Source: Verrucomicrobiota bacterium
GTDB lineage: Bacteria; Verrucomicrobiota; Verrucomicrobiia; Chthoniobacterales; UBA10450
DNA length: 33,650 nucleotides
Direction of reading: 5' to 3'
NCBI GenBank assembly: GCA_003221295.1
Contig: QHRA01000177.1
Coordinates: 1-33,650, forward strand
Part shown: one piece after another, positions 740-26,546 of the stretch
Layout: each line of letters starts with the position of its first letter
Numbering within the stretch: the stretch's first letter is position 1
The notes under the pieces: model-generated
Databases searched by the model: none
Seen by the model: the letters and a program-made list of their open reading frames with translations, nothing else
Told to the model about the DNA's origin: nothing
Position numbers and translations under genes: made by a program

Positions 740-802
740 CGGACGATTGTAGCCAACATCAGGGCGGCTGCGCAAAAAATTTTCACTGAAACGCCACCGG
801 TT

Positions 803-889
803 GTCATCCCGAGCGCAAGTCGAGGGATCCCGTTGAAGTTACCTTTAAGGCTTCGCGGCGGGGATCCCTCGACTTGCGCTCGGGATGAC
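803..889. repeat. Palindromic element, family A (perfect 29-bp inverted repeat)
   Basis: The arms at 803-831 and 861-889 are perfect inverted copies, beginning GTCATCCCGAGCGCAAGTCG, around a 29-base loop that contains ACCTTTAAGG. The element fills most of the gap between the smc stop and the E1-alpha start. Related copies or fragments occur near 13030, 14558, 15750 and 17525. As RNA it would form a very stable hairpin on either strand. There is no T-run, so a classical intrinsic terminator is not supported. Confidence 0.9.
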
Positions 890-901
890 CGGGAAGACGA
901 A

Positions 902-3900: not shown

Positions 3901-4654
3901 ATACGTGCGCGATCTCGGCGGTGCATTCGTTGAGTTCCTGCTCGAGGCTCTGCAATTTGCGATGTGAAAAATGAGTGTCGAGCACTTGCAGGTCCGCATG
4001 CAGCGCCTGATATCGCCGCGCCTTGCCCGCCTGTCGTTGCAGCGACCCAATCTGCCGCTTCACTTCCTTAATGATGTCGCCGATACGCAACAGATTCGCT
4101 TCTGTCGCTTCCAGTTTGCGGAGCGCTTCTTTTTTTTGCGTTTTGTATTTAGTGATTCCGGCCGCTTCTTCAAAAACGCTGCGCCGATCTTCCGGACGCG
4201 AACTCAAGATCAGGTCGATCTTGCCTTGCTCCATGATGGAGTAAGCGGCGCGACCCACTCCGGTGTCGGCGAACAAACTGTGGATGTCCTTCAAGCGGCA
4301 CCCGGTTTTGTTCAGGAAATATTCGGAATTGCCATCGCGGTAAATACGTCGCGTTACCCGCACCTCATGCCAGTCGACCCCGAGCTCCTCCGAGCACTCG
4401 GTGAAATTCAGCGAAACTTCGGCGAAACCGAGCGGCTTGCGGGACTCGGCGCCGTTGAAAATGACATCAGCCATCTCGCCGCCGCGGAGCGATTTGGCAG
4501 ATTGTTCACCCAAAACCCAGCGGACGGCGTCGCAGACGTTGGACTTCCCGCAGCCATTTGGACCAACAATGGCGGTCACGCCTTCGTGGAAATTAAAGAT
4601 TGTTTTGTCGGCGAAAGACTTAAAGCCGAAGAGCTCGAGCGATTGAAGATGCAT
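902..4654 (-). CDS. smc: Chromosome segregation SMC ATPase
   Basis: This is the structural maintenance of chromosomes protein, the ATPase core of the bacterial condensin (with ScpA and ScpB, not seen here). It is 1250 residues long. The N-terminal head starts MHLQSLELFGFKSFADKT and carries Walker A GPNGCGKSN at residues 31-39. Two long heptad-rich coiled-coil arms (about 170-520 and 680-1020) flank a hinge around FAGALAAQLDVSHEFVPAIE. The C-terminal head has the ABC signature LLSGGERTM near 1122 and Walker B FCVLDEMDAPLDE near 1148-1158. The reading frame stays open upstream to 4843, but conserved SMC sequence begins at the ATG at 4652-4654. The upstream extension would translate a palindromic repeat, so I reject it. 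I see no clear Shine-Dalgarno sequence. The length is normal for the family. Confidence 0.97.
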   Translation of the reverse strand: MHLQSLELFGFKSFADKTIFNFHEGVTAIVGPNGCGKSNVCDAVRWVLGEQSAKSLRGGEMADVIFNGAESRKPLGFAEVSLNFTECSEELGVDWHEVRVTRRIYRDGNSEYFLNKTGCRLKDIHSLFADTGVGRAAYSIMEQGKIDLILSSRPEDRRSVFEEAAGITKYKTQKKEALRKLEATEANLLRIGDIIKEVKRQIGSLQRQAGKARRYQALHADLQVLDTHFSHRKLQSLEQELNECTAEIAHVSDTEQATRNEINEGEAKLAAARRELDAADEKITDARAKVQQLENEIASHRHRIEFNEKHGAELRQWIERSQREIESAETKLREQNAEIESANVLVEETTRLLEQKNQELEHLTEDASKRREVFRACDQKLRDVQMSLSRDELRLSAIAEDLRELRERRDATNRDADTRRARIASAGAGHKQLHVKMTEARAATEAERQTVEQLSASVRSQEETLRQNQRALAEVEKKLSAIDRTIAEKESRHEVLCQLTEEGEGLAQGSQALLKSKEFEFAGALAAQLDVSHEFVPAIEAALGRNLHALILRDRARAAEIISHLNQQQLGQAALVLERIAHRDRPASNDLPQSAIGWAADKVRTPAPLEALVKGLLHNVALFENLEEALNAIVKNPELAAATLRGEYISHEGILFGGNGRVRTDSLLERKARIDAIAIELGQLKREQAMVEQQRVALESQIATAMRALEKAVALHQEAQLAQTASASKISQLEREHHSAERELESLEFERSTLERQIAAADAQIQQLEEQGAELEEKIARDRKEAALLQTQRDEALREEEEANVRLAELRIAAATHEQKHQNLLAQRAPMLARQTELSDVMATRRADIENYEARLVTQAAEDDAARNAIEQQRQECTRREAEIWKLVAERTSRLETINSDESRLRAVRDHLSELQEKRGTHSVRQTQLQLQIEHLAEHVMERYRVDLRQFEPDIQGHEKVLHAQLKRAKEKIESVAEVAGRGDVLRDEKEPRPAIVATEEDQQKLVADLARQLENMGPVNLEAVQEYDELEERYRFLETQNIDLTNSRRELLEVIARINSTTQELFAETFAQVRVNFREMFAELFGGGRADLQLMDESDALNCGIEIIAKPPGKQLQSISLLSGGERTMTAVALLFAIYMVRPSPFCVLDEMDAPLDESNINRFIKVLERFVSQSQFIIITHNKRTIAKADILYGVTMEERGVSKLVGMKMTPPRKAEANGASTTVAEATQRHFSIAEEPHRVSSLAAR

Positions 4655-4668
4655 TGAAATGGCGGGGT

Positions 4669-4843
4669 GGCGCCCAAGGCGCCTTGTTGTGGTGAATATA
4701 ATCGCAAGGATGCGCCCGCAAGGCAAATCTATACAATTCAGCGTGGGCGGCGCCTGCTCCACTACCATATTTTGGGGTGGGAGGGAAGTTTCGGGGTCGC
4801 CCAGTGCGGGGGCCAAGGCGCCAGCCGTGCTGGCGCGCTCCAA
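4669..4843. repeat. Hairpin repeats upstream of smc (family C)
   Basis: Two GC-rich hairpins lie in the 270-base gap between smc and the permease. At 4669-4683, GGCGCC-CAA-GGCGCC. At 4818-4836, GCGCCAGC-CGT-GCTGGCGC. On the minus strand the second begins TTGGAGCGCGCCA, and a related start (TTGGAGCGCGGCCA) lies at 6379 just after the response regulator, which suggests a dispersed family. No gene is convincing in 4655-4924. Confidence 0.6.
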
Positions 4844-4924
4844 AGGCTTCGCGAATTAATGCTGGGCTTCGACCAGCCAGATTGTGGAGTGCGGCAGCTC
4901 TACTGCCGCTTTCTCCGTGCCCGG

Positions 4925-6262
4925 TTACGATACGTCTGGGGTCGATCGCAGCTTGGTTCGTACGAAATACAGGATCGACGCAATCGCCAGCACTATTCCG
5001 TTTACGGCAAATTCAAACAGCGTCGCATGAGCGAGAATCCAGATGATGGCGAGAATGGCGAGCGCGGGGACGATTTTCATCCCGGGAAAATTGAAAGGTT
5101 GACCGTCGGTCCGCACGTCGCGCTGCACCAAAAACCAGCAGGCGGCGCAGCAGAGCAAATACATCAGGAGGACGGCCACGTTGGAAAGGACCGCTAGTTT
5201 TTCGAACGTGCCGGTGACGGACAAGGCAAAGGCGAGGACGGCATATGTCATGATGGCGACGTCAGGTGAGCGATACCGCGGATGCACGTGCGCGAACCAC
5301 GCCGGCAACGCGCCGTCGCGGCCGAAGGCAAAGATCATGCGCGGCGAACTTAGAATGTCACTGGTGACAAATCCGAATGCGGAGATTGTCGCGCCCGCGA
5401 GAAGAATGGTGCGGCCGATGTTGCCGAGAAATAGCGCGGCTGCTTCAGCGAGCGGCGCGTCTTTGTGATTGGCAAGATCGACACCGAGCGTTCCTTGCGC
5501 CACGAGCTGGATGAGAATGTAAATGATGGTGGTAATGACGAGCGCGAGATACGCAGCGCGCGGAACGGTGCGCGACGGATTTTTCACTTCGCCGCTCGGG
5601 ATCAACGCCACTTCGATTCCAACGAAAGCGAAGATCAATAGGATGACACTATCGCCTAACGCCTTGCTGCCCGGCCACGCGATCCAAGTCAGATTCGCCG
5701 GGTGAATGAAAAAGATTCCGGCGCAAACGAACAGAAGTAACGGGAGAAGTTTCGCAATCGTGATCGTCGTGACTGCGCCCGCGCCTTCGCGCACGCCGCG
5801 AATGTTGATGAACACGAGCACGCCATAGACCGCAAGCATCACAACGATGCGCACCACTGGTCCGCCGAGAAATGGAATGACCAGTGCGATTGAGTTCGCG
5901 AGCACATTCACCACGCCCGCAACCGCGCCAAGCGCGGTCAGAAAGTAAAGCATGCCTGCGAGAAACCCGACGTATTTGCCGAACGCGACCTCGACATACG
6001 CGTAGAGTCCGCCCGTGAGCGAGACACGGCTACCCGCGATGGCGAAACAGGTGACGAACAAAACCATCGCGATTGCGCAGCAAATAAATGCTAGCGGCGC
6101 AGCCGGCCCGAGTCCTGCCGCGACCGTCGCAGGAATCACGAAAATTCCTGCGCCGATGGTCGAGCTGACAATGTTGGCAGTGAGCGCGGGAATTCCGATG
6201 CCACGGACAAGTTGATGATCGACCTGTTCCGCTTGTTGGATCGACACTGTCTCATCAGCCAC
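4925..6262 (-). CDS. APC-superfamily amino acid permease
   Basis: This is an inner-membrane amino acid/polyamine/organocation transporter of 445 residues with about 12 hydrophobic segments. The first helix carries the APC motif as NIVSSTIGAGIFVIPATVAA. This is the unwound, substrate-binding GxGIF region of the family. A second conserved segment, VGIEVALIPSGEVKNPSRTV, matches the helix 6 region of APC transporters (usually FxGxExxxxxxxExxNP). The start codon is GTG at 6260-6262; the next in-frame Met lies after the first helix, so the GTG is well supported. Substrate cannot be read from sequence. It lies 118 bases after the response regulator gene and 270 bases before smc, with repeats in both gaps, so co-transcription is uncertain. 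Confidence 0.88.
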   Translation of the reverse strand: MADETVSIQQAEQVDHQLVRGIGIPALTANIVSSTIGAGIFVIPATVAAGLGPAAPLAFICCAIAMVLFVTCFAIAGSRVSLTGGLYAYVEVAFGKYVGFLAGMLYFLTALGAVAGVVNVLANSIALVIPFLGGPVVRIVVMLAVYGVLVFINIRGVREGAGAVTTITIAKLLPLLLFVCAGIFFIHPANLTWIAWPGSKALGDSVILLIFAFVGIEVALIPSGEVKNPSRTVPRAAYLALVITTIIYILIQLVAQGTLGVDLANHKDAPLAEAAALFLGNIGRTILLAGATISAFGFVTSDILSSPRMIFAFGRDGALPAWFAHVHPRYRSPDVAIMTYAVLAFALSVTGTFEKLAVLSNVAVLLMYLLCCAACWFLVQRDVRTDGQPFNFPGMKIVPALAILAIIWILAHATLFEFAVNGIVLAIASILYFVRTKLRSTPDVS

Positions 6263-6299
6263 GCCGCGGATGGTGCGTCATTTAAGCGCGCGAGACAAG

Positions 6300-6379
6300 G
6301 CTCGCGATCAGGTGCATAGGCTTCCAGATCGGCGGGCAAGATGCCCACCGGCCCCACAGCCAGGATGGCCGCGCTCCAA
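6300..6379. repeat. GC-rich repeat between response regulator and permease (family C-like)
   Basis: Immediately after the response regulator stop the minus strand reads TTGGAGCGCGGCCATCCTGG and then GTGGGCATCTTGCCCGCC, a short hairpin-forming stretch (GGGCA/TGCCC). Its start resembles the minus-strand start of the repeat at 4843. It may lie in the 3' untranslated region of the regulator gene. Confidence 0.45.
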
Positions 6380-6380
6380 T

Positions 6381-6914
6381 TCAGCCGCTGATCTTGCCCT
6401 GCACTTTCTCCAACGCGGCTTGCGCGGCGTGAAGTTCTGAAGTGCGCGCATGCACTGCGTCTTCGAGAGCGGCGCGCCGGTTATCGAGCAACTGATGAAT
6501 ACGGCGGGTCTCGAGCAGATTCCGAATGCGCAGGAGCACTTCGATGTGATCCAAAGGTTTGTTCAGAAAATCGGTTGCACCACAATGCAGGGCCCGGCGT
6601 TTGGTTTCCTCGTTGACGTCGGCCGTGAGGACAATGATTGGCAAGTAAACCTCGCTCCGATCGGCACGCAAGGATTCGAGAACCGCGAATCCATCAAGAT
6701 GTGGCATGAACAAATCGAGCAGAATCAAGTCTGGGTCGAACTCATCGCAAAGTTCGAGGACCCGGCGGGAATCAGTCGTTGACTTAAGTTGGGTGTAACC
6801 TTGCTCCCCCAGCATGTCTTCCAGGAGGGCAACGTTGGCGGGCTCGTCGTCAACGATGAGGATCTTCATTTTCGCGTAGGCGGCGAGCTCGCTTTTCCAG
6901 TTGGCAGTGTCCAT
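6381..6914 (-). CDS. Stand-alone receiver-domain response regulator
   Basis: This 177-residue protein has a CheY-like receiver from about residue 16 (MKILIVDDEPANVALLEDML). The acidic pair is D22/D23, the phosphoacceptor is D67 in DLILLDLFMPHLDG, the switch threonine is T97 in VLTAD, and the lysine is K119 in FLNKPLD. After the receiver there is only a helical, probably coiled-coil tail (about 134-172) and no DNA-binding or enzymatic output domain. It probably acts as a phosphotransfer or protein-interaction module. The annotated ATG is at 6914; a second ATG at 6869 (residue 16) begins exactly at the receiver and is a real alternative. It lies 148 bases downstream of the hybrid kinase gene on the same strand. 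Partnership is likely but inferred. Confidence 0.9.
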   Translation of the reverse strand: MDTANWKSELAAYAKMKILIVDDEPANVALLEDMLGEQGYTQLKSTTDSRRVLELCDEFDPDLILLDLFMPHLDGFAVLESLRADRSEVYLPIIVLTADVNEETKRRALHCGATDFLNKPLDHIEVLLRIRNLLETRRIHQLLDNRRAALEDAVHARTSELHAAQAALEKVQGKISG

Positions 6915-7062
6915 GTGCGACGAGTCAGCTTTCTTTCTAACTTGGTTCGCTTTTCCCAGCGTCCTTTCCTACTATTAACTCATCGCGCTCGACCGATTCT
7001 TTTTCAACTACTACGAGAGTGATGGAAAAACGCGACGCCGCGCCATACAATTGCTCGGTCCT

Positions 7063-10000
7063 TCATATTTTCTTAGCTGTTACGTTCTCTCTTCCATTCG
7101 CTTTTTGAATCAGCGTCTTTGAATCGGTCGATGGCCACGCCGATTCCTCGATCACTCGGGAAAATTTTGTGACGTCGAGTGGTTTGGTCAGGTAATCGCG
7201 GGCGCCGGCAGTCATGAACTGTTGAATCTGTCGCGCGGTCGCATCGGCACTAATGACGATGACCGGGATGTTTCGTGTCGTTTCCTCACCCCGCAATTGC
7301 GAAAAGACCTCCCATCCGTTCAAGTCGGGCAGATGTATATCGAGCAAGATGAGATCGGGTGAATGTTTGCGCGCTAAGTCCAAGCCAAGCCGGCCCTGCA
7401 TTGCGCTCAGCAGCTCGACCTGCGGTTGCTGGCGAAGAATTTCCTGAACGAGATTGAGGTTAGAAAGGTTGTCTTCAATATAAAGGATGGTGCGCTTGCC
7501 GGCAGCGGGGTTCCGGTCCGGCAGGGGTTCATCCTCATTGTCTTCCGGCTCCGTGATTGATGGCGGCTCGGCCCGGGGAAGATCAACCCAAAAAGTGCTG
7601 CCGCGTCCAATCGCGCTGCTGGCCCCGATACCGCCCCCCATGGCATGCATGATACGGGCAGAGAGAGCAAGGCCGAGGCCAGTTCCCTCCACCGCCGACT
7701 GCTCCGCCCCCAGGCGATCAAACGGCGTAAACAGCCGCGACAATTTTTCACTGGCAATGCCCGAACCCATGTCGCTAATCACGATCCGCATGGTGCCTTC
7801 GCCGGCAGATCGATAGGAGATTGAAACTTTGCTCTTCTTTGGACTGTACTTTACGGCGTTCGAGAACAAGTTAAGCAAGACCTGCTTGAAACGCTGAAGG
7901 TCGGCTAAAACATGGACCGGCGGATCGGTCCGGACGGGCGCGCTAAACTCAGTCCCGCGCTCGGCCGCGAGTGGCCGCATTATATCAAGCGCTTCATCCA
8001 AAACGTCAGCGAGATTAACCGACTCCAAGCACAACTGCATCGCACCGGCTTCGATCCGGCTGATATCCAGGATTTCATTGATCAAATTGAGGAGGTGACG
8101 ACCGGCACCAGTGATGTGGCCGGCACGGGTACGAAGAGCCCCGGCCGGACTCTGTTTTTCAATAAGCTGGCCAAATCCAAGAATTGCGTTTAGCGGCGTG
8201 CGCAATTCGTGGCTCATGCGGGAAAGAAACTCGCTCTTGGCTCGGTTCGCTCGCTCCGCCTCCTCCTTGGCGGCATGTAACTCGCGTTCGACGCGTTTGC
8301 GATCGGTGGTGTCGCGAATTGCGGCGATTGCCAGGATGCCCTCGTCGGTCTCGAGTGGGCTGAGGCTAATCTCGATTGGAAATTGGTTTCCATTCTTGCG
8401 TTGACCAAATAGGTCGAGCCCGGCACCCATTTCACGGCTGCGAGGGCTTTTGAAAAAGTCGCGTCGATTGCCGGGTTGCTTGCCGTGAAAACGTTCCGGG
8501 ACTAGAACTTCAATTTCTTTTCCGAGCAGTTCCTCGCGTTGGTAGCCGAAGATTTTTTCAGCCTGCGAATTTACCAGCACAATCGTTCCCTCACCGTTGA
8601 CAATGACAATGGCATCGGGAGCGGATTCGAGCAGCGATCTGAATTTTTGATCGGCCTTGCTTCGCTCGGTAATGTCCTGCGACGTTCCAACGATTCGGAG
8701 GACCTTGCCGGTATTGTCGACGACAGTACGAGCCAGGCTATGCAAGAGCCGGGTTTCGCCGTTTGGCAGAATAATCCGGCACTCGATCCCGGTGGACTCA
8801 TGGCCCGCCACTAATTTCTTCAACCACTTGCGCACTCGCTTCCGGTCGTCCGGATGAACGGAGGCCATGAAACGATCGTAGCTGGCCGGGAATTCGTCCG
8901 GCACGAACCCAAATAGCCGGTACTGCTCCTCCGACCAGAACACCTGCCTGGTGGCCACATCCCATTCCCAGCTTCCGACATGAGCAACTCTTTGTGCTTC
9001 CGCCAAACGCGACTCGCTAAACTTGAGGGCGTCTTCAGCTCGTTTGCGTCTGGTGATGTCCCGCAGAATTCCCGTGTAAAACTGCCCCTGGTTTGTTTTC
9101 CACGAAGAGAGGGTGAGCTCGATCGGAAATTCCGCGCCATCTTTTCTCAGGCCTTCGAGCTCGACCGGCTTGCCGACGACGCGTGTTTCCCCTCCGGCTT
9201 TGAGGCGCGCTATCGTCTCGCGGTGCATGCCGTGATACCGCTGAGGAATAATGGTGTTGAGTGGTTTCCCGATTGCCTCCTTTTCATTATAGCCAAAAAT
9301 TGCTTCGGCTCCGGGATTCCAAAAAACGATGTTTCCACTGTCATCCGCCGAGACAATCGCGTCGCCGATGGAGTGCGTGACAGAGCGCAGTTTCGCTTCC
9401 GAAACGCGCAGCCCATTCTCTGCGACTGAGCGTTCAGCAATCTCGCGATGTAGCATCGCGTTGGCCGCAACCAGTTCGTGCGTCCGTTCCGCGACCAGAA
9501 CTTCGTCGCGTTGGCGATGTCCGGTGACAACAAGGAGGAACGCGCCAAGTAGTCCGGTAAAGAGCAAAGCGACAGCGGGCACGCTGCACGACTGCCAGGC
9601 GCGGTGGGCGAGCAAATACTCAGGCGAGAGGGCGGATTCCAGCAACCATTTCCGGCCAGCCATTTCGATACTTGTTTCCATCTGCAAAACTGCCGGCTTC
9701 GCGCGCTCGCTTGCATTCTGGAAAAGAATCTGGTTTGTCGAGGCTGCGTTCTGATCGAGGAATCGCAATCGGAGGCCGTTTTGATCGACTCCCTTAAGCG
9801 ATTGAGCTATCACATCCGCGATTCGAAAAATTGCGGCGACGTAGCCTTCCAATCGGTGTTGCCGCTCTTCAACTGTATTGTGGGAAAGGCCGTTGGTGTA
9901 GATTGGCAAGTAGACTACGAAGCCAGGCGCTGTGCCCTTCTCCTGAATGAGTTCGGTTTGTTTGGTAGCGCGGGCTTCTCCCTTATCTCTTGCCCACTCG

Positions 10001-11151
10001 AACGCTTGGCGCCGGACCGGATCGCAAGCGATATCAAATCCGAGCGCCCTTTCATTCCCGGACAGGGGCTCGATGTAGCGGATGACAATGTATTCATCAC
10101 GCTGGCCCGCCGGAATCAGTTTTTGCTGCGCATCGCGCTCGGTCAGCTGAAAAGTTCCAAGCCCATCCCGGCGGGCCGCTTCGACAAAAGCCGACACTTT
10201 AGCCTGGGGGACTCGCGCATTCCACGAAAGCGATTGGATTCCGGGGTGATCGGAGATATCTCTCGCCACAAACGAGCGAAAACTGCCTTGGCTCACTGCG
10301 GGTGAGCTTGCAAAAAAGTTCTGTATCGAGCGCAGGACGTCGAGATAACCATCAAAGTCGCTCTGGAGTTTTTGGCTGAGATTCTGGGTCCGCTGCTCAA
10401 ACTCCATCTTGATCCGCGCTTGTTCCCATCGATTGGTCTGGAAAAAGAGAGCCACTACCACGGCGAAGGTGAAGGCCATCGGTAGCGTAACGGAAAGCTT
10501 ACGGCGCCAATCCGCGGCCCGGAAGGTCCAGATCAGGACGAGCGGGGCGAAAATCAGGGTGCCGATTGAATCGCCCACGTACCAGGTAACCCAGTTCGTT
10601 AAGAAATCGGCGGAAGAAATAACGCGGGCCAACCAAAGAGTCGTTACTGCGAAGGTGGAGGTGATGAGGCAGCTCGACGATGCAACCAGAGAAAAGCGGG
10701 CAACCTCCTTCTCAGTGGCCAGCGCTGTTCGTATGCCGACGAAACGGCGCACCAGGAACGCTCCTGCTAGGGCCTGTAAAGCTGCGGCCCCGGCGATTAA
10801 GGCCGGGACCGTGACCGATTTTGCGATTCCGCCAAAGGTGGCCGTATCGAGCGACGTCCAAAAATGGACAAGAAAAGATCCGATGATCACGCCCGGCCAG
10901 GCACGATTGCCGAATAGAAGGATACAGCCGAGTGCGAGACCAGCCGCCGGCCAGACCGCCGTTGCATAGCCGGGGGGAATTGCCAGGAGAAGCGCTAACC
11001 TGCCTGCTACGAAGTAGATCGCCGCGGTGGCGGCAATGCCGCCGAGACATCGGATAGTGGAAAATCGTTTGGGGGGCGCGGGTCCGCTATGAGACTGCTC
11101 TGTGATGCGACCAGGAGACATCCAATCGTCTGCGCGCAGGAGATATGCCAC
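7063..11151 (-). CDS. Hybrid sensor histidine kinase (MASE1-CHASE-PAS-PAS-PAS-HisKA-HATPase-REC)
   Basis: This is a 1362-residue membrane sensor. Residues about 35-240 are a multi-helix MASE1-type sensor with the hallmark [17 protein letters not shown]. Residues about 265-480 match a periplasmic CHASE domain ([15 protein letters not shown], then [19 protein letters not shown]). A further membrane helix near 525-550 follows. Three PAS domains start near 581, 711 and 836, each ending in a DIT/DTT-type motif ([24 protein letters not shown]). HisKA has H981 in [16 protein letters not shown]. The ATPase has N1098 (N box), D1127 in DMGSGI and GTGLGL near 1156. A C-terminal receiver has D1271 in [13 protein letters not shown]. 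All catalytic residues are present. The start taken is GTG at 11151, with a weak GAGG upstream; ATG at 11121 is an alternative. The receiver gene downstream is the probable partner. Ligand unknown. Confidence 0.93.
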
Positions 11152-18231: not shown

Positions 18232-19017
18232 ATGGATCGGCAGCTCCTGATTTTCGCGACGATTTGTTATCTGGCAGCGGTGATCAGAACTGTTGTTTCG
18301 TTCCGGGCGCGCATCTTTCGCCGGAGCCGATTTGTCTTCCTAACAATCGCGCTTGGTTTCGTTTTGCAGACTGCATTTCTCACCGTTCGCGGGCACACTC
18401 TGGGGAGTTGCCCGATTACGAATTTATTTGAAGTGCTCGTTTTTCTGGCCTGGTCGATCGCCCTTATTTACCTGTTGATTGGGCCGGCCTACCGCCTCTC
18501 GCTCATGGGCGCGTTTACGGCGCCGCTCGTTTTTTTGCTGCAAGTCGCTGCCTTGCTCGCGCCGATCGATATACCGCGCGCTTCCCCGATTGCTCCAAAT
18601 CCATGGTTGGAGTTTCACGCCTCTATTTCGATAATCGCCTACGGGGCGTTCGCGCTCGCATGCGTGGCCGGCGCCATGTATCTGGTGCAGGAACGGCAGC
18701 TCAAGACCCACCAGTTGCGCTCAATTTTTTATCATTTGCCACCGCTGCCCAATCTCTTTTCCGCGATGACAAGGCTGCTTTGGTTCGGTTTTATTCTCTA
18801 TAGCGCGGGGCTGATCAGCGGATTTTTTGTGAACGAACCAATGCCCTGGACCAAGATCGTCTTGGCGTTCGCGATCTGGATTTTGTACGGCGCGATTTTG
18901 CAGGGCCGGTATTTGCGATGGATGGCGCCGCGGCGGATTGCCGCACTCTGCATGTTTGCATTCGCCGTTGCCCTGCCGCTTTTGTGGAGCATCGAATTTG
19001 TCGGTCATCGCGCATGA
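18232..19017 (+). CDS. CcsA/HemX-like cytochrome c assembly membrane protein
   Basis: This is a polytopic inner-membrane protein of 261 residues with about eight hydrophobic segments, of the CcsA/CcmC/HemX family that handles heme for cytochrome c maturation. The family pattern is visible in GHTLGSCPITNLFEVLVFLAW, in the histidine-bearing segment WLEFHASISIIAYGAFALAC, and in LYSAGLISGFFVNEPMPW. The frame is open from a TTG at 18196, but the ATG at 18232 (MDRQLLIFATICYL) starts just before the first helix and is preferred. Its stop overlaps the hemA ATG (ATGA). HemX-type genes commonly precede hemA, so this is the first gene of the heme run. Whether it acts in cytochrome c maturation or in controlling HemA level cannot be told. 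Confidence 0.87.
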   Translation: MDRQLLIFATICYLAAVIRTVVSFRARIFRRSRFVFLTIALGFVLQTAFLTVRGHTLGSCPITNLFEVLVFLAWSIALIYLLIGPAYRLSLMGAFTAPLVFLLQVAALLAPIDIPRASPIAPNPWLEFHASISIIAYGAFALACVAGAMYLVQERQLKTHQLRSIFYHLPPLPNLFSAMTRLLWFGFILYSAGLISGFFVNEPMPWTKIVLAFAIWILYGAILQGRYLRWMAPRRIAALCMFAFAVALPLLWSIEFVGHRA

Positions 19018-20084
19018 ACTTTTTTTGCTTTGGTCTCAACCATCGCACCGCGCCGATTGAAGCACGCGAACGCTTCGCTGGCCACGCCCGATCGCCCGCA
19101 CTGTTGCGTGATCTCGGCTGCAGCGAAGTGCTGTTGCTCACGACTTGTAATCGGGTGGAAATTTATGCCGCAGCGGATACAAATATTGCGAACGAAGAAA
19201 TTGCGCAATCCCTGCGCATCGAAGGCGGATCGAGCGCGAAAAACGATTTGGAAGCATTCTATCGCAAGGAAAACGCGGAATGCGCGCGGCATCTTTTTCG
19301 CGTCGCGGCAGGACTTGATTCGATGGTGGTGGGCGAAACCGAAATCCTCGGCCAGGCCAAGCGCGCTTATGCAGAAGCGCTTGCGAACGGAAATGCCGGT
19401 CCGTTACTGCATCGGCTGTGTCAGCGTGCTTTTCGGGCGGCAAAACAGGTGCGCTCAAAGACACAGATTACGCGCGGGCCGGTTTCGGTTGGTTCGGTGG
19501 CGGTGGATTTGGCGGAGAAGATTTTTGGTGATTTACGAGGGCGAAAAGTCCTGGTGTTGGGAGCTGGGGAAACGAGCGCGAAAACTTTGCGTGCGCTCGC
19601 TTCTCGCGGGGTTTCAGATCTGCGCGTAAGTAACCGGACACCGGCACGCGCGGAAGAGCTGGCAAGCGAGTTGGAAGGACTTGCGGTGCCGTTTGCGACC
19701 TGGCTCGAGCAGTGTCGCGAAATCGATATTCTGATTTCATCGACTGCGGCGGAGACGCATCTGCTGACTCCGCCGTTGCTTGTTCCGATTTTGCGCGACC
19801 GAGCCGATCGTCCACTTTTTATCATCGATATTGCGGTACCACGGGACGTCGCCCCGGAAGTGAACGAATTCGACGGCGTTTATCTCTACGACATTGATTC
19901 CTTGCAACAGATTGCCAGCGAATCACACGAGCTTCGCCGGCAGCAACTGGCCGCCGCCGAAGCGATCATCGACGAGCACGTCGCGGATTTTCAAAAACAT
20001 TTGGGGTTGTCTAAGTCCGGAACGCGACCAACAAAGGAATGCCCGGCCCGCGTGAGCGGAGAATTGCGGACATCCGAACTGTAG
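19014..20084 (+). CDS. hemA: Glutamyl-tRNA reductase (short form)
   Basis: HemA reduces Glu-tRNA to glutamate-1-semialdehyde with NADPH, the first step of the C5 heme pathway. The protein is 356 residues and starts MNFFCFGLNHRTAPIEARER. Visible features: the catalytic cysteine in LLTTCNRVEIYAA, the signature LFRVAAGLDSMVVGETEILG, and the NADPH domain GRKVLVLGAGETSAKTLRAL. The C-terminus ends soon after the spinal helix (QQLAAAEAIIDEHVADFQKH), so most of the usual C-terminal dimerisation domain (roughly 60-90 residues in E. coli-type enzymes) is absent. The last about 20 residues have no recognisable match and run into a repeat-rich junction. Start and upstream stop overlap by four bases (ATGA), implying coupling with the ccsA-like gene. 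Confidence 0.96.
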   Translation: MNFFCFGLNHRTAPIEARERFAGHARSPALLRDLGCSEVLLLTTCNRVEIYAAADTNIANEEIAQSLRIEGGSSAKNDLEAFYRKENAECARHLFRVAAGLDSMVVGETEILGQAKRAYAEALANGNAGPLLHRLCQRAFRAAKQVRSKTQITRGPVSVGSVAVDLAEKIFGDLRGRKVLVLGAGETSAKTLRALASRGVSDLRVSNRTPARAEELASELEGLAVPFATWLEQCREIDILISSTAAETHLLTPPLLVPILRDRADRPLFIIDIAVPRDVAPEVNEFDGVYLYDIDSLQQIASESHELRRQQLAAAEAIIDEHVADFQKHLGLSKSGTRPTKECPARVSGELRTSEL

Positions 20085-20138
20085 CGACGCTTCGTGAGCG
20101 TCGAAGAGTCATCGAGGAGCGGTGTTTATGAAACGCCG
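20085..20138. repeat. Double hairpin at the hemA/hemC junction
   Basis: Directly after the hemA stop are CGACGCT-TCGTG-AGCGTCG (20085-20103) and CGGTGTTT-ATG-AAACGCCG (20120-20138, one mismatch or G-U pair). The second half is translated as the N-terminal residues of HemC, and the GTG start of hemC lies in the loop/right arm of the first hairpin. This may be a repeat insertion, or a structure controlling hemC translation. Confidence 0.6.
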
Positions 20139-21023
20139 CGACAGGACATAGTTCTCGGCACTCGCGGGAGTGAATTGGCGTTAGCGCAAACCCGAATGGT
20201 TAAGGAAGCGCTGGCTCGGACTCGGCCTTCGCTCAAGATTGCGACCAAAATCATTCGTACCACAGGTGACCATGACCTCAGGGCTGGGCGCAAAGGAATT
20301 TTCACGGCCGAGCTGGAGCGGGCGCTGATGGAAAAGCGCATTGATTTCGCGGTGCACAGCGCGAAGGATTTGCCCAGCGAACTTGAGGGCGCACTTACGA
20401 TTACAGCGGTGTTGCCCCGTGGCGCAGTGGAAGATTTGTTGCTCAGGAAAAGTGCAGCGCGCAAACCGGTCGCAACAATCGCGACGGGAAGTGTGCGGCG
20501 ACAAAGGCAAGCGCGCTGGAGTAACCCTGCCGCGCGCGTCGTAGGGCTGCGCGGAAATGTGCCCACCCGTCTGCGCAAATTTATCGAAAGCGATTGGGAC
20601 GCGATTATTTTGGCGCGCGCCGGCCTGGAGCGGCTCGGATTCATGCCGCCGGAGTTTGAATTTCAAGGCCAGAAGCTTTTTGCCGAAATACTGCCGCAAG
20701 AAAATTTCGTATCGGCTGGCGGTCAGGGGGTCATCGCCTTGCAAACACGCGCAGCCGATTTGGTCGCGTGCGAAATTGTATCGTCGATTGATGACAGGGA
20801 AACGCATCTTTGTTTACGAGCGGAGCGCGAATTTTTGCGATTACTGGAAGGTGATTGCGATTTGCCAGTGGGCGTGCACGCTCGATTTATGAACGGCGAA
20901 ATGGAATTGCATGCACAGGTTTTTGGCGATGCACCTGCGCCGAAAATGGCGAGTGGGCGAGGGAACGATCCGGAGGAATTAGCGGGAGAGGTTTTTAGAA
21001 AGCTCGAGCATGAGCAGAAGTAA
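20094..21023 (+). CDS. hemC: Hydroxymethylbilane synthase (porphobilinogen deaminase)
   Basis: HemC polymerises four porphobilinogens into hydroxymethylbilane. The protein is 309 residues. Conserved parts: VLGTRGSELALAQT, IRTTGDHDLR, GIFTAELERALMEKRIDFAV with HSAKDLPSELEG, TGSVRRQRQAR, and the cysteine that carries the dipyrromethane cofactor in LLEGDCDLPVG. The only usable start is GTG at 20094, 9 bases after the hemA stop. The first about 18 residues (VSVEESSRSGVYETPRQ) are not conserved and are encoded by a double-hairpin repeat. The 3' end overlaps the next gene by 14 bases, so translation is probably coupled. Confidence 0.97.
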   Translation: MSVEESSRSGVYETPRQDIVLGTRGSELALAQTRMVKEALARTRPSLKIATKIIRTTGDHDLRAGRKGIFTAELERALMEKRIDFAVHSAKDLPSELEGALTITAVLPRGAVEDLLLRKSAARKPVATIATGSVRRQRQARWSNPAARVVGLRGNVPTRLRKFIESDWDAIILARAGLERLGFMPPEFEFQGQKLFAEILPQENFVSAGGQGVIALQTRAADLVACEIVSSIDDRETHLCLRAEREFLRLLEGDCDLPVGVHARFMNGEMELHAQVFGDAPAPKMASGRGNDPEELAGEVFRKLEHEQK

Positions 21024-22539
21024 GAGCAGGAGTAACGAGGGAAAATGTTTTCTGGTCGGAGCGGGGCCGGGCGATCTCGGACTGGTGACATTGCGTGCGA
21101 AAGAGTTGCTGGAGCGCGCCGACGTTATTGTTTACGACGCGCTTGCCAATCCGGAAATGCTTGGCTGGGTGCGGGTTGACGCCGAAATCATTTTCGCCGG
21201 AAAGCGCGCTGGCGAGCAGACGCTTTCGCAGGATGAAATCAACGCGCTCCTAATCGAAAAGTCGCGTATCGGAAAGAATGTAGTCCGATTGAAGGGAGGG
21301 GATCCGTTTGTTTTCGGACGCGGGGGCGAAGAAGCTGAAGCGCTGGCCGCAGCTGGAATTGATTTCGAAATTGTCCCGGGAATCACATCTGCCATCGCGG
21401 TGCCCGCATATGCCGGAATTCCGGTAACTCATCGCGATCAGAATTCGCACGTCACTTTTTTCACCGGCCATGAGGATCCGGCGAAGAGTGAAAGCGCAAT
21501 TGACTTCGATGCACTGGCGAAGCTGGGGGGCACGCAAGTGATGCTAATGGGGGTGGACCGCTTGGCGGCGATCACCCGCGAAATGCTGGTGCACGGCAGC
21601 CGAAAGAACCTGCCAGTGGCCCTCGTCCGTCTCGGCACACAGGGGCATCAAAAAACTATTGTTGGTACTCTCGAAAATATCACAGAGCGAGCGAGTGCAG
21701 CGGGCTTCGAAGCGCCAGCCGTCGCAATTTTCGGTGATGTCGTTTCCTTGCGAAAAGATTTAAACTGGTTCGAAAAACGTCCCCTTTTCGGTAAGCGAAT
21801 CGTAGTCACGCGCACGCGCAAACAGGCGAGCGGGTTGAGCTCACAATTGCGTGCTCTGGGAGCGGATGTCATTCAGTTGCCAACCATCCGGATCGAGCCG
21901 CCCAGCGATCTTCGCGAATTCGCCGAGCTGGTGCAGGACGCGCATTCTTATGACTGGATCGTTTTCACCAGCCCGAACGGTGTCGATGCCTTTTTCGAGA
22001 TTTTTTTCAAACTTTACGATGACGCGCGCGAGATTGGCGCGGCGAAAATTGCGGCCATCGGACCAGCCACAGCGCAACAGGTAAAAGACTTCCGTCTTCA
22101 TGTCGATTTGCAGCCGGAAGAATTCGTGGCTGAAGCGGTGGTGAAGGAGTTTGAAAAAACGGGTGGGGTTGAAAATCTTAGGATTCTGATCGCTCGCGCA
22201 GAGAAGGCGCGGGACTTGCTCCCCAAACGGCTGAGCGGCATGGGTGCGATTGTGGACGAAGCGTTTGCTTATCAAACCGTTCCGGAAACGCGTGACGTGA
22301 CCGGGGCGCATCGCCGTTTTTCGACCGAAGGAGCCGATCTCATCACCTTTACCAGCTCGTCGACGGTGGAAAATTTTCTCGATTTGAAGCTGCCTTGGCC
22401 AGCTGGGATGAAGGTGGCCAGTATCGGCCCGATCACGTCAGCGACGCTGCGTGAGCGCGGACTGAGCGTCGACGTGGAGGCGAAGCGGCACGACGTCGTG
22501 GGCTTAATCGAGGCGATTCGGAAATTTTACGGCGCCTGA
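21010..22539 (+). CDS. cobA-hemD: Uroporphyrinogen-III C-methyltransferase / uroporphyrinogen-III synthase fusion
   Basis: This is a 509-residue two-domain enzyme. Residues about 12-250 are a SAM-dependent uroporphyrinogen-III methyltransferase (siroheme/cobalamin branch), with the SAM loop VGAGPGDLGLVTLRAKEL, VVRLKGGDPFVFGRGGEEAE and VPGITSAIAVPAYAGIPVTH. Residues about 258-505 are uroporphyrinogen-III synthase (GKRIVVTRTRKQASGLSSQL, DWIVFTSPNGVDAFFE, ITFTSSSTVENF). So one protein makes the macrocycle and diverts part of it. This fusion is known in several phyla. The ATG at 21010 lies inside hemC. The grpE-like gene begins 2 bases after its stop. hemB and later heme genes are not in the window. 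Confidence 0.95.
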   Translation: MSRSKSRSNEGKCFLVGAGPGDLGLVTLRAKELLERADVIVYDALANPEMLGWVRVDAEIIFAGKRAGEQTLSQDEINALLIEKSRIGKNVVRLKGGDPFVFGRGGEEAEALAAAGIDFEIVPGITSAIAVPAYAGIPVTHRDQNSHVTFFTGHEDPAKSESAIDFDALAKLGGTQVMLMGVDRLAAITREMLVHGSRKNLPVALVRLGTQGHQKTIVGTLENITERASAAGFEAPAVAIFGDVVSLRKDLNWFEKRPLFGKRIVVTRTRKQASGLSSQLRALGADVIQLPTIRIEPPSDLREFAELVQDAHSYDWIVFTSPNGVDAFFEIFFKLYDDAREIGAAKIAAIGPATAQQVKDFRLHVDLQPEEFVAEAVVKEFEKTGGVENLRILIARAEKARDLLPKRLSGMGAIVDEAFAYQTVPETRDVTGAHRRFSTEGADLITFTSSSTVENFLDLKLPWPAGMKVASIGPITSATLRERGLSVDVEAKRHDVVGLIEAIRKFYGA

Positions 22540-22541
22540 TT

Positions 22542-23222
22542 ATGCCCGACGATTTCGCCAGCACAATGCAGGAACTTAGCGCTGCGGCAACGCTGGCGCG
22601 TGAAGAAGCGCGAAGCAGTGATTTCGCTTCGCTCCTGCGCGAATTCCGCACCGTGACTCAGAACGTGCAAAGCTTGGAATCAGCTCTAACTCGCCGAGTC
22701 GAGCAGATCGCCTCGATCATCTTGCCGGCACACGCCACCGAAGCCGCGGCCCAGTTTCAAAAAATCCAAGAAGGTCTCGAGGCTATCCGCGTGAGCGAAT
22801 CGGTGAACCATCGCTTGTTCGATTCTTTGCACGAGGAGTTGCTGAAATATCGCGACAATTTTCTCTATGAATCGTTGCAAAAGCCGTTCGTTCGCGACCT
22901 GATCGGGGTATACGACGATCTCACAACTCTGGCGACCCAGCTTAAAACGGCGTCGGAGGGACGGAAATCGGAACGGTTAACGCGCTGGCAGGATAATTTG
23001 GGAAATGCGATCCATGCTTTGATGGAGGTGTTTCACCGTCTGGAAGTAACGGAGGTGGAACCGAAGGAATTTGTCGACCTCGCGGTGCATCGGGTCGTTA
23101 CCTATGAAACGACGAGCCGGACCGAAGACGACGGCCGCATCGTCACGCGAGTCAAGCGAGGCTTCATTTGGCGCGGCAACGTCCTGCGACCGGAAGAGGT
23201 GATCGCCCTGCGTTGTCAATGA
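22542..23222 (+). CDS. GrpE-like nucleotide exchange factor
   Basis: This 226-residue protein is, by sequence style and position, a GrpE-type partner for the Hsp70 that follows. An N-terminal helical part (about 1-100, with FRTVTQNVQSLESALTRRVE) could form the GrpE stalk. The C-terminal part has the GrpE-like order: RDLIGVYDDLTTLATQL, GNAIHALMEVFHRLEVTEVE, and a beta part ending RGFIWRGNVLRPEEVIALRC, comparable with the GY...LRPA.V ending of GrpE. It is more divergent than housekeeping GrpE, so I give no symbol. It follows cobA-hemD by 2 bases and its stop overlaps a possible upstream ATG of the Hsp70 gene (ATGA at 23219), so the chaperone genes are translated within the heme transcript. Confidence 0.8.
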   Translation: MPDDFASTMQELSAAATLAREEARSSDFASLLREFRTVTQNVQSLESALTRRVEQIASIILPAHATEAAAQFQKIQEGLEAIRVSESVNHRLFDSLHEELLKYRDNFLYESLQKPFVRDLIGVYDDLTTLATQLKTASEGRKSERLTRWQDNLGNAIHALMEVFHRLEVTEVEPKEFVDLAVHRVVTYETTSRTEDDGRIVTRVKRGFIWRGNVLRPEEVIALRCQ

Positions 23223-23353: not shown

Positions 23354-24916
23354 ATGAACCAACGCAAAGCAGTCGGTATTGATCTAGGCACAACCTTCTC
23401 TGCCGTAGCGCATATCGACGCTTACGGTAAGCCGCAAATTATTCCGAATGCCGAAAGCGAACGGATCACCCCTTCGGTGATCTTGTTTGATGGCTCAAAC
23501 GTGATCGTTGGGACGACGGCAAAGAATAATGCCGTGGCCGAGCCGGAGAAAATCGTGGACTTCGTCAAGCGCGAGATGGGCAAGCCGAAGGAGCAATTTC
23601 ACCGCGAATTTGGCGGCAAAGTTTATTCGGCCGAGGAATTGAGCGCGTTGATTTTAAAGAAGCTCAAACTCGACACGGAAAAGTATCTCAGGCAACCGAT
23701 CACCGACGCGGTCATCACCGTTCCGGCCTATTTCAATGACGCGGAACGAACTGCGACCATCACAGCCGGTCAGCTCGCCGGCTTCAATGTTTTGCAAATT
23801 ATCAACGAGCCTACTGCCGCCGCGCTCGCCTACGGTTTGGATAAACTGAACGAGAACCAAACCGTTTTCGTCTTCGACCTTGGTGGTGGAACGTTCGACG
23901 TTACGATCATGCGCATCCAGGGCCAGCACATCAACATGATCGCGACCAATGGCGATCACCGGCTCGGCGGCAAGGATTGGGACGACACCATCGTCAATCA
24001 CATGGCGGAGGAATTTGATCGCCAGCATGGAGAAAATCCGCTGCTCGATCTACAAAGCTACCAGGACTTGCACACCCGAGCGTTATCAGCCAAGATCCAG
24101 CTTTCCAGCCGCATGCAAAGCGCGGTGGTTCATCATCACAATGGCAAAAGCGTCAAGCTCGAGATCACACGCAATGAATTCGAGCGCCGCAGCCAGCATC
24201 TGGTGGAAAAGTGTAAGACCATCTGCGAAATGGTGATGCAGGAAGCGAACATGACCTGGGACGACATCGACAAAATTTTGCTCGTCGGCGGCATGACCCG
24301 CATGCCGATGGTCCGCACTCTGGTTTCGCAGTTGACCAAAGCGCCGGTGATTGACGAAGTGAATCCCGACGAAGCCGTGGCGAAGGGCGCCTCGATCCAG
24401 GCGATTCTTTCCTTGCTCGAAGAAGAGAAAGTCTCGGGTGAACAAGTGCTGCCGACCGACACACGCGATCAATTTGTCGGACGCGAAGGCGGTCTGATTC
24501 AGGTCACCAACATCACCTCGCACACCCTCGGCGTTGTGCTGTGGGATGAAGTGCACCTCGAGGAATACGTTTTCCCAATGATTCGCAAAATGACGGCGAT
24601 TCCGGCGCGGGCGCGCAATTCATTCGGTACTGCGATGTCCAATATGCAGCGCGCCGTTGTCCGGGTGGTGGAAGGCGAAAGTACGCTGCCGGGCGAATGT
24701 ACGCCGCTCGGAATTTGTGATGTGGAACTTCCCGCATTCTTGCCGAAGGGTTCGCCGGTTGAGCTGACTTACGAATATAACGCCAATCAAGTTCTGGAAG
24801 TTTCGGTCGAGGCCAGTGGTAACCGCGCCAAGGTTTCCATCGAGCGAAACACCGGTCTGGCGCCAAACGAGGTGGCACAGGCGGCGGCGAATCTGGGATC
24901 TCTGCGGGTTGCGTGA
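23354..24916 (+). CDS. Hsp70-family chaperone lacking the C-terminal lid
   Basis: This is a DnaK-like ATPase of 520 residues. The nucleotide-binding domain is complete: AVGIDLGTTFSAVAHIDAYG, AVITVPAYFNDAERTATI, IINEPTAAALAYGLDKL, FVFDLGGGTFDVTIMRI and ILLVGGMTRMPMVRTLV. The substrate-binding beta domain follows (TNITSHTLGVVLWDEVHLEE to KGSPVELTYEYNANQVLEVS), and the protein ends about 25 residues later, so the helical lid and tail of DnaK (roughly 100 or more residues) are missing. The usual VLLLDVTP linker is replaced by GGLIQVTNIT. The start taken is ATG 23354 (MNQRKAVG). An ATG at 23219 overlapping the upstream stop would add 45 residues of no known domain and is a serious alternative. This is probably a specialised Hsp70, not the housekeeping DnaK. 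Confidence 0.92.
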   Translation: MNQRKAVGIDLGTTFSAVAHIDAYGKPQIIPNAESERITPSVILFDGSNVIVGTTAKNNAVAEPEKIVDFVKREMGKPKEQFHREFGGKVYSAEELSALILKKLKLDTEKYLRQPITDAVITVPAYFNDAERTATITAGQLAGFNVLQIINEPTAAALAYGLDKLNENQTVFVFDLGGGTFDVTIMRIQGQHINMIATNGDHRLGGKDWDDTIVNHMAEEFDRQHGENPLLDLQSYQDLHTRALSAKIQLSSRMQSAVVHHHNGKSVKLEITRNEFERRSQHLVEKCKTICEMVMQEANMTWDDIDKILLVGGMTRMPMVRTLVSQLTKAPVIDEVNPDEAVAKGASIQAILSLLEEEKVSGEQVLPTDTRDQFVGREGGLIQVTNITSHTLGVVLWDEVHLEEYVFPMIRKMTAIPARARNSFGTAMSNMQRAVVRVVEGESTLPGECTPLGICDVELPAFLPKGSPVELTYEYNANQVLEVSVEASGNRAKVSIERNTGLAPNEVAQAAANLGSLRVA

Positions 24917-24920
24917 TGGT

Positions 24921-26546
24921 GTGAAATGCGTCGCTGTTTTTCCAACCCCCCTTCCCGACGATCCCCAAAAATGGGAAGGTTGGAGTAAGTATAATTCGAC
25001 CAATCCCTACGAGCGTCTTTGTCTCGATGCCCAGCAGAATCCGACTGACGAGCTGATCGAAGAGCATTGCCGCGAGCTTTTGCGGTGGTGGCAGAAAAAA
25101 CTGCCGCTAAAAAATCAGCCGAGCAATCCGGTTGCCCAGCTTTTGCGCGCCGGCCTGGACGAATCTTCGCGCTATCTGACGGAAGCGCGCATGGAATTGC
25201 TCGATCCCGAGCGGCGGAAAAAAGTTGATGCCGTTTTGGCCGCCGAAGCGGAGCAACAGGCGATCGCGGAATTTAATAAGGTTCTAGCCTTCTCCATCGC
25301 AGACGGCGGGCTCCGTCCGGAGGAAGAGAAAGCTCTCCAGCGTTTTGGCGCGGATCACGGTCTGTCGGAAGAAAAAGTCCTTCAATTTATTGAAGCGAAA
25401 TTAAAGGAAACGGGAACAACTCGCGTGGTTCCCGAGCCGGAATTGGAGACCGAAACCGTGGTGGCAGTCGCACCGGGCGACGCCAAATCGGAATTCCTAC
25501 GCGTGCTGCAGCTTAGCGGTTTGGACAGCGACTCGATGACCGACGATCAACGCGACGCCTTGATCAACATCGCCGAAAATTCCGGGCTCGATCCGGGAGA
25601 CGCCGAGGACATGGTGGACGAATATCTTGAAGAAATCGACCGAAAACAGATCGCCGAGATAACGAAGGGCAAGGGAAAACCTACCGCAGCGGTTGGTCCG
25701 AACGGAACGAGTGCGGTCAAGGCTGCAAAGGTCAAGGTGGTGGACGAGCCGGTCCCCGCTACCTCCGCGCGCCCGGTGCTTTCGCCCCAGCAGGAACGGA
25801 AGCGGTATCCCAACTTTAGCAATTCACTTGGCGGTCAAATGCTTCTTATTCCATCGGGGGAATTCATCATGGGCAATCCGTTTCCGAAAGCGCCTCCAAA
25901 CGAAAGCCCGCATTTCCGCGTTACTATCAGTCGCTTTTACATATCGCGTTTTCCGATCACGAACGCGCATTACGAAGCCTTCGATCCCCTTCACAAAAGT
26001 AAACGCGCGCCTGCGACCGGAGATCGGCATCCCGTTGTTTATGTCAGCAGTCTGGATGCGGTGAAGTTTTGCCAATGGCTCAGCACCCGTGAACGCAGAA
26101 AATATCGGCTGCCGACGGAAGCGGAATGGGAATACGCCGCCAAAGGCACCGACGGGCGAAGATATCCCTGGGGCAACTTCGATAAGCGCGGCGATCTCGC
26201 CAATTTTGCCGACAAAAACACTTCTTTCGCCTGGAGCGATCGCCAGATCGACGATGGTTATGCCGAGAGTGCGCCGGTGGGTTCATTTCCACGCGGAGCC
26301 AGCCCGTTCGGGATCGAAGATATGGCGGGAAATGTCTGGGAATGGTGCAGCGATTTCTTTGAGCAATACAAACCAGCGCGCAAAGCCGATCCGCACGGAC
26401 CCCCGAGTGGAGCCAAACGCGTTTATCGCGGCGGCAGTTGGAAATCGCGCTTCGCCAGTTTGCAGACGACCACGCGCAGCGCCAACGTCCCGAATTTCTC
26501 CTGCAACGATCTTGGTTTCCGAATCGTCTGCGAGTGCGAAAGCTAA
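24921..26546 (+). CDS. Multi-domain protein: J-like/TerB-like helical region plus cysteine-less SUMF (FGE-type) domain
   Basis: This protein has 541 residues from GTG 24921, 4 bases after the Hsp70 stop. Residues about 29-108 (NPYERLCLDAQQNPTDELIE... LDPERRKKVDAVL) are helical and resemble J-domain-type modules in layout but lack HPD. Residues 116-163 and 190-238 are two related helical repeats (EFNKVLAFSIADGGLRPEEE and EFLRVLQLSGLDSDSMTDDQ), TerB-like. A linker rich in K, P and V follows. Residues about 305-541 are a SUMF/FGE-sulfatase fold: PSGEFIMGNPF, YRLPTEAEWEYAAKGTDGRR, DMAGNVWEWCSDFFE, VYRGGSWKSRFASLQ, LGFRIV. The paired active-site cysteines of true formylglycine-generating enzymes are absent near TTTRSANVPNFS, so enzymatic FGE activity is unlikely. 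No signal peptide. It is presumably a client-binding or adaptor partner of the Hsp70 (inference). Confidence 0.8.
   Translation: MKCVAVFPTPLPDDPQKWEGWSKYNSTNPYERLCLDAQQNPTDELIEEHCRELLRWWQKKLPLKNQPSNPVAQLLRAGLDESSRYLTEARMELLDPERRKKVDAVLAAEAEQQAIAEFNKVLAFSIADGGLRPEEEKALQRFGADHGLSEEKVLQFIEAKLKETGTTRVVPEPELETETVVAVAPGDAKSEFLRVLQLSGLDSDSMTDDQRDALINIAENSGLDPGDAEDMVDEYLEEIDRKQIAEITKGKGKPTAAVGPNGTSAVKAAKVKVVDEPVPATSARPVLSPQQERKRYPNFSNSLGGQMLLIPSGEFIMGNPFPKAPPNESPHFRVTISRFYISRFPITNAHYEAFDPLHKSKRAPATGDRHPVVYVSSLDAVKFCQWLSTRERRKYRLPTEAEWEYAAKGTDGRRYPWGNFDKRGDLANFADKNTSFAWSDRQIDDGYAESAPVGSFPRGASPFGIEDMAGNVWEWCSDFFEQYKPARKADPHGPPSGAKRVYRGGSWKSRFASLQTTTRSANVPNFSCNDLGFRIVCECES

Follow-up and report, generated by a model that had tools for sequence, protein, structure and literature searches.

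A 541-residue protein combines a J-like domain that lacks the HPD tripeptide, two related helical repeats, and a SUMF domain that lacks the catalytic cysteine pair of the formylglycine-generating enzyme (FGE). It is encoded in an operon directly behind a lid-less Hsp70 whose residues for HPD-dependent switching have been replaced. We consider it, with a probability of roughly 0.55, to be the J-type partner of a dedicated second Hsp70 machine, which would dock without the HPD-R167 contact and would bind a client with its SUMF domain. The missing FGE cysteines are not remarkable by themselves; what stands out is the J-like domain together with its setting. Positions below refer, unless a locus is named, to the window, that is, the whole stretch of 33,650 nucleotides that was analyzed.

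Gene and domain organization

The reading frame starts with GTG and ends with TAA, and its start codon is located 4 nt past the stop codon of the upstream hsp70, a start position that is shared by the homologs. Comparison of this gene, hereafter sumf, with four close relatives gave dN/dS of 0.06-0.16, indicating purifying selection. The features of the region are collected in Table 1. A Pfam search of the 541-residue protein found nothing credible on the N-terminal side of the SUMF domain, no signal peptide was apparent in its sequence, and a promoter scan found 4 sites against 3.5 expected from shuffles, i.e., no excess. No description of the J-like/SUMF gene or of its module was found in the open-access literature.

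Table 1. Positions of the module genes and of the domains of the J-like/SUMF protein in the window
Feature	Position	Strand	Evidence
hemA, hemC, fused uroporphyrinogen-III methyltransferase/synthase (hemDX)	18918..22539	+	NCBIfam; order conserved in most loci reaching that far
GrpE-like nucleotide exchange factor gene	22542..23222	+	PF01025, 42.4 bits vs cut-off 25.8
Lid-less Hsp70 partner gene, ATG at 23354	23354..24916	+	PF00012 E 1.2e-123; R167 position Q, linker D393 position N
J-like/repeat/SUMF protein, 541 aa	24921..26546	+	ORF, homologs, purifying selection
J-like domain without HPD, about aa 26-119	24996..25277	+	model, structural matches, hhalign
Nearly invariant motif WWQKKLPLKNQPSNP, aa 56-70, helix II/III hairpin at HPD site	25086..25130	+	column conservation
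Three-helix repeat 1, called TerB-like, about aa 112-168	25254..25424	+	helices in model, repeat-repeat hhalign, PADLOC PDC-S48 E 0.0013
Three-helix repeat 2, about aa 188-243	25482..25649	+	model, hhalign, PADLOC PDC-S48 E 1.1e-5
SUMF/FGE-sulfatase domain without catalytic cysteine pair, aa 306-536	25836..26528	+	PF03781 E 6.7e-51, VIA, alignment

A sequence-only reading of this region had proposed a helical, J-like N-terminus without HPD, and structure prediction bears this out. The model of the isolated N-terminal domain reached pLDDT 94.5, and its 15 best Foldseek matches were all J-domains or chains bearing one, with probabilities of 0.60-0.99, although the E values of 0.3-3.7 make each match weak individually. 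When the same model was compared using VIA, J-domains filled almost every one of the first 43 rows, the best with Z 9.2 over 78 residues at 2.8 A. Alignment of the N-terminal profile with canonical J-domains of the same clade by hhalign scored 24.0, whereas the maximum of 200 column shuffles was 20.3 and the reversed control scored 9.5. These comparisons indicate that residues 26-119 are, as modeled, a true J fold with helices I-IV and without HPD in the helix II/III loop. Pfam DnaJ gave no match to the N-terminus even at E 1, and identity as a canonical DnaJ was rejected for this reason.

Compared with a J-domain, the matched stretch has about 14 extra residues, and the model shows helices II and III with lengths of about 23 and 25 residues. 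The tripeptide HPD is absent from every homolog, and its place is taken by QKK according to helix register, by LPL according to profile alignment (LPLKN against HPDKN), or by QPS at the tip of the hairpin. The motif found there, WWQKKLPLKNQPSNP, is more conserved than any other part, with a mean column conservation of 0.994 compared with 0.744 for the SUMF domain. Diverged second copies of the J-like/SUMF gene that stand alone, away from any Hsp70, also occur (L033, L034, L035 and L037), and the motif is retained in them.

The two repeats that follow are mutually related (hhalign, E 2.7e-6), so that the repeats expected from the sequence stood. Their assignment to TerB is not established, as PF05099 matched weakly in only one of the 61 members (E 0.17). 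The VIA comparison of the full model barely covered this stretch.

The SUMF domain lacks the FGE cysteines

Retention of the FGE-sulfatase fold and loss of its paired active-site cysteines had also been anticipated, and both were confirmed. PF03781 matched all the 61 homologs tested, and the C-terminal fold gave VIA Z of 26.3 to 2y3c, 26.0 to PvdO, about 23.5 to FGE and 20.8 to EgtB. In the alignment with solved FGEs, Ser509 occupies the place of the first catalytic cysteine, and 70 of 71 homologs have serine there. The second cysteine faces an alignment gap near Ser513, and none of the homologs restores the pair. The protein therefore has the fold of FGE (SUMF1) without the paired copper-binding cysteines, and its identity as an FGE enzyme is ruled out by the absence of the pair. 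Loss of the catalytic cysteine pair is ordinary in bacterial SUMF proteins, of which PvdO, GldK and TvpA are examples.

A complete known enzyme family such as EgtB would have contradicted the sequence-only reading, and none was found. All the curated SUMF enzyme families of the NCBIfam equivalogs scored far below their cut-offs, with 64.1 bits against 360 for EgtB (TIGR03440), 89.9 against 500 for PvdO (NF051459) and 115 against 350 for GldK, and membership in these three families is excluded accordingly. The N-terminal DinB-type domain of EgtB, with its iron-binding His residues, is likewise missing, since no DinB-type domain matched in the 61 members.

Several cysteines of the SUMF domain outside the FGE pair are almost invariant (window 26070-26537): C384 in 72 of 72 homologs, C476 in 71, C537 in 69 of 70, and C539 in 65. 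C537 and C539 form a CEC pair at the C-terminus of the protein. The counterpart of C384 in human FGE is a cysteine that does not belong to the catalytic pair, and the conserved cysteines may therefore be structural.

Distribution of the module

The module is conserved chiefly in a single order of soil bacteria, the Chthoniobacterales. When 84,980 species genomes were scanned, 74 loci were recovered, almost all of them under the labels Verrucomicrobia, Spartobacteria, Chthoniobacterales or Chthoniobacter, and Chthoniobacter flavus is a cultured member that carries the gene. When the N-terminal part was used as query, it was found in 51 of 98 relatives and in only 5 of 388 genomes of the phylum. 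The Hsp70 neighbor noticed in the window is maintained, as a PF00012 gene lies directly upstream of sumf at 68 of the 74 loci; of the other six, L066, L098 and L119 begin at a contig edge and L100, L101 and L103 are stand-alone copies. The order hemA-hemC-hemDX-grpE-hsp70-sumf is found at most loci with enough sequence. At six loci (L105, L112, L123, L128, L132 and L133) grpE was not found and hsp70 and sumf are still adjacent, and in one genome from a different order within the class (G412, L213) the trio grpE-hsp70-sumf occurs without hem genes. These two cases indicate that the unit consists of hsp70 and sumf, usually with grpE, and the latter case indicates that the link with hem genes is not obligatory.

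A phage origin is not favored; PHROG matches were confined to the SUMF and Hsp70 domains. In the draft genome of Chthoniobacter flavus Ellin428 (L135, 5319-8678), hsp70 and sumf are each split into several frames, by sequencing errors or by true frameshifts. The glutamyl-tRNA reductase of the window (18918-20084) matches only positions 2-333 of the 416-position model, and its C-terminal dimerisation part therefore seems absent.

The partner Hsp70 has lost the contact residues of the switch

The Hsp70 encoded upstream has the nucleotide-binding domain and the beta domain of the substrate-binding part (PF00012), and since it ends after the latter, it has no lid. It is not DnaK proper: it scored 416 bits against the equivalog cut-off of 822, and has R167Q and the linker IQVTN in addition to the missing lid. 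Of the 62 readable copies of the module Hsp70, 57 have Gln where DnaK has Arg167, and the others show Ser, Asn, Lys or an unread residue. Within the linker, VLLLD is changed to IQVTN; Asn replaces Asp393 in 53 of 65 copies, and an insertion precedes this position. A single fixation in an ancestor is the probable origin of these changes, so the two counts do not represent independent events. The same genome carries elsewhere a canonical DnaK, a GrpE-DnaJ pair and one more J-protein, and this DnaK retains both Arg167 and the linker Asp393. When the C-terminal substrate-binding domain of the module Hsp70 was searched against 289 genomes of the phylum, it exceeded 230 bits in only four, each of them a carrier of sumf, whereas every other match was below 50 bits.

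In the DnaJ-DnaK complex, HPD Asp35 contacts Arg167 and His33 touches the linker, and the DnaJ mutation D35N is suppressed by DnaK R167H (PMC7289447, PMC8215388, PMC13012618). Loss of HPD on one protein and of R167 on the other thus affects both sides of one contact. The occurrence of WWQKKLPLKNQPSNP at the HPD site and the matching loss of R167 and D393 in the partner go beyond what the sequence-only reading had seen.

A few other divergent Hsp70s seem to point in the same direction, and we regard them as a lead, not as a test. At L211 (G365:C7:1-9000, 1-3338, minus strand), a GrpE-like gene, a lid-less Hsp70 with Asp at position 167, a vWA gene and a small J-like-looking gene without HPD adjoin a HerA-like ATPase. 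At L215 (G123:C1:538000-550000, 3444-10531), a GrpE-like gene is accompanied by two lid-less Hsp70s, with Ala and Glu at position 167, and by a 900-residue protein that has a J-like start, NYFEIL, and a double zinc ribbon; these are followed by a P-loop protein together with a T4SS coupling gene, and this module is present in 3 of the 79 genomes of its family. Profile comparison of the large protein at L215, as a single sequence, gave no tie to the J-like/SUMF family. At L212 (G328:C122, 5236-9289), a 578-residue Hsp70 that retains Arg167 is followed by a J-domain protein with KPE in place of HPD (PF00226 E 5.6e-5, below the cut-off). Except for that at L212, the J-like assignments at these loci come from reading the sequence.

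Proposed mechanism and alternatives

We propose that the GrpE-like factor, the lid-less Hsp70 and the J-like/SUMF protein would constitute a specialised Hsp70 machine. The J-like domain would dock on the cognate Hsp70, and may thereby affect its ATPase, by the lengthened helix II/III hairpin with WWQKKLPLKNQPSNP instead of by HPD-Arg167; docking by a different contact is probable because the partner Hsp70 has also lost the matching half of the switch. The two repeats would serve as spacer or assembly module, and the SUMF domain, of C-type-lectin-type fold and without the copper-binding cysteines, would be the client- or ligand-binding end; the protein probably delivers particular clients to this Hsp70. 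The tetrapyrrole gene products encoded upstream would be the first candidate clients. The sequence-only reading had favored an adaptor rather than an enzyme, and the absence of the cysteine pair and of a complete SUMF enzyme family, the J fold without HPD and the strict Hsp70 neighbor make an adaptor the most economical reading; of this claim, Hsp70 binding and the absence of chemistry in the SUMF domain are the parts that we infer. We also consider, as a tentative extension that may well be wrong, that the Hsp70/J pair has been freed from the HPD-Arg167 switch on both sides, and that the J-like partner still drives the cycle by its WWQKKLPLKNQPSNP hairpin acting on the linker, where Asp393 is neutralised.

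The main rival is that the HPD-less domain has lost Hsp70 binding, being placed off the J site of Hsp70 as a structural or pairing module similar to Pam16 or CJD1/ARC6, which would bring in a canonical J-protein or keep the complex assembled. We regard this as unlikely. The cognate Hsp70 has here itself lost R167, unlike the Pam16 case, where the canonical J partner remains and the Hsp70 remains ordinary, and there is no second J gene in the operon. In favor of a pairing module, HPD is absent from all the homologs, canonical DnaJ-type proteins are encoded in the same genome, and precedents for such a module are described in a report that also cites Tim16-Tim14 (PMC3196505). In addition, Arabidopsis CJD1, which has no HPD, did not bind chloroplast Hsp70s in yeast two-hybrid analysis and did not replace DnaJ (PMC3196505). 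The stand-alone copies away from hsp70 (L033, L034, L035 and L037) keep the motif, which would also run counter to a role as Hsp70 partner.

The remaining alternatives concern the SUMF domain and the nature of the module. That this domain works as an enzyme with an unrecognised chemistry, either PvdO-like or using C384, C476, C537 and C539, with the Hsp70 trio only maturing or regulating the SUMF protein, agrees with an intact and well conserved fold that has PvdO and EgtB among its neighbors and with the near invariance of C384, C476 and C537. We nevertheless consider it improbable: the FGE pair is gone, the curated families score far under their cut-offs, there was no match to a DinB domain as in EgtB, the conserved cysteines may serve a structural role, and the highest conservation lies in the J-like motif, not in the SUMF domain. 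Still less probable, in our view, is a conflict or stress-response system similar to the GTPase-centred systems with HSP70, GrpE and DnaJ fusions, in which SUMF would be an effector or sensor. The description of those systems includes both HSP70-GrpE-DnaJ-fusion themes and FGE-type effector domains (PMC7159879), both repeats match the PADLOC candidate PDC-S48, and in the other Verrucomicrobiota family (L215) the GrpE gene, two lid-less Hsp70s and large protein lie beside a T4SS coupling gene. The present module is, however, vertically conserved behind housekeeping hem genes under strongly purifying selection, and among its genes we found neither an effector nuclease nor a STAND NTPase or GTPase.

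If the J-like/SUMF protein is indeed the partner of an Hsp70 freed from the switch, the two would constitute an orthogonal Hsp70 machine, insensitive to ordinary J-proteins. HPD is treated as a defining and indispensable part of the J-domain, and a conserved natural pair in which both HPD and the contact arginine are replaced would allow a direct test of J action without the salt bridge. Such a pair could also give an Hsp70 system insulated from the chaperones of the cell itself. Many non-enzymatic SUMF domains are labelled 'nonheme iron enzymes' in databases, and client binding would provide a likely role for one of them.

Comparison with known systems

The whole C-terminal fold is shared with FGE (SUMF1; 1y1e, 2q17), at VIA Z of about 23.5 and rmsd of about 3 A over 222-226 residues, whereas the present protein lacks the copper-binding cysteine pair, is fused to a J-like domain and has no apparent signal peptide. 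PvdO (5hha), GldK/PorK (9mzu) and TvpA (2y3c) are among the closest structural neighbors, with Z of 26.0, 23.6 and 26.3, respectively, but they have other architectures, and the NCBIfam scores for PvdO and GldK are below the cut-offs. The sulfoxide and selenoxide synthases EgtB, OvsA and SenA have a SUMF domain at the C-terminus (Z 15-21) as well; their N-terminus is a DinB-type iron-binding domain, whereas that of the present protein is J-like. With the GTPase-centred conflict systems (PMC7159879), the module shares a second Hsp70, GrpE and a J-fused third protein, and it differs in that their GTPases and FNIII repeats are not seen in it.

On the J-protein side, Pam16/Tim16 and Arabidopsis CJD1 and CPP1 have the same J fold without HPD and different C-terminal domains, and none of them is known to pair with an R167-less Hsp70. 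The class C J-proteins with dedicated Hsp70s, HscB-HscA and DjlC-HscC, resemble the present system in the J fold, in the divergent dedicated Hsp70 and in having a C-terminal domain of their own, and the differences are the absence of HPD from the present protein and of R167 from its partner. HscA and HscC are considered to be independent of GrpE (PMC8215388), whereas most copies of the present module include a GrpE-like gene.
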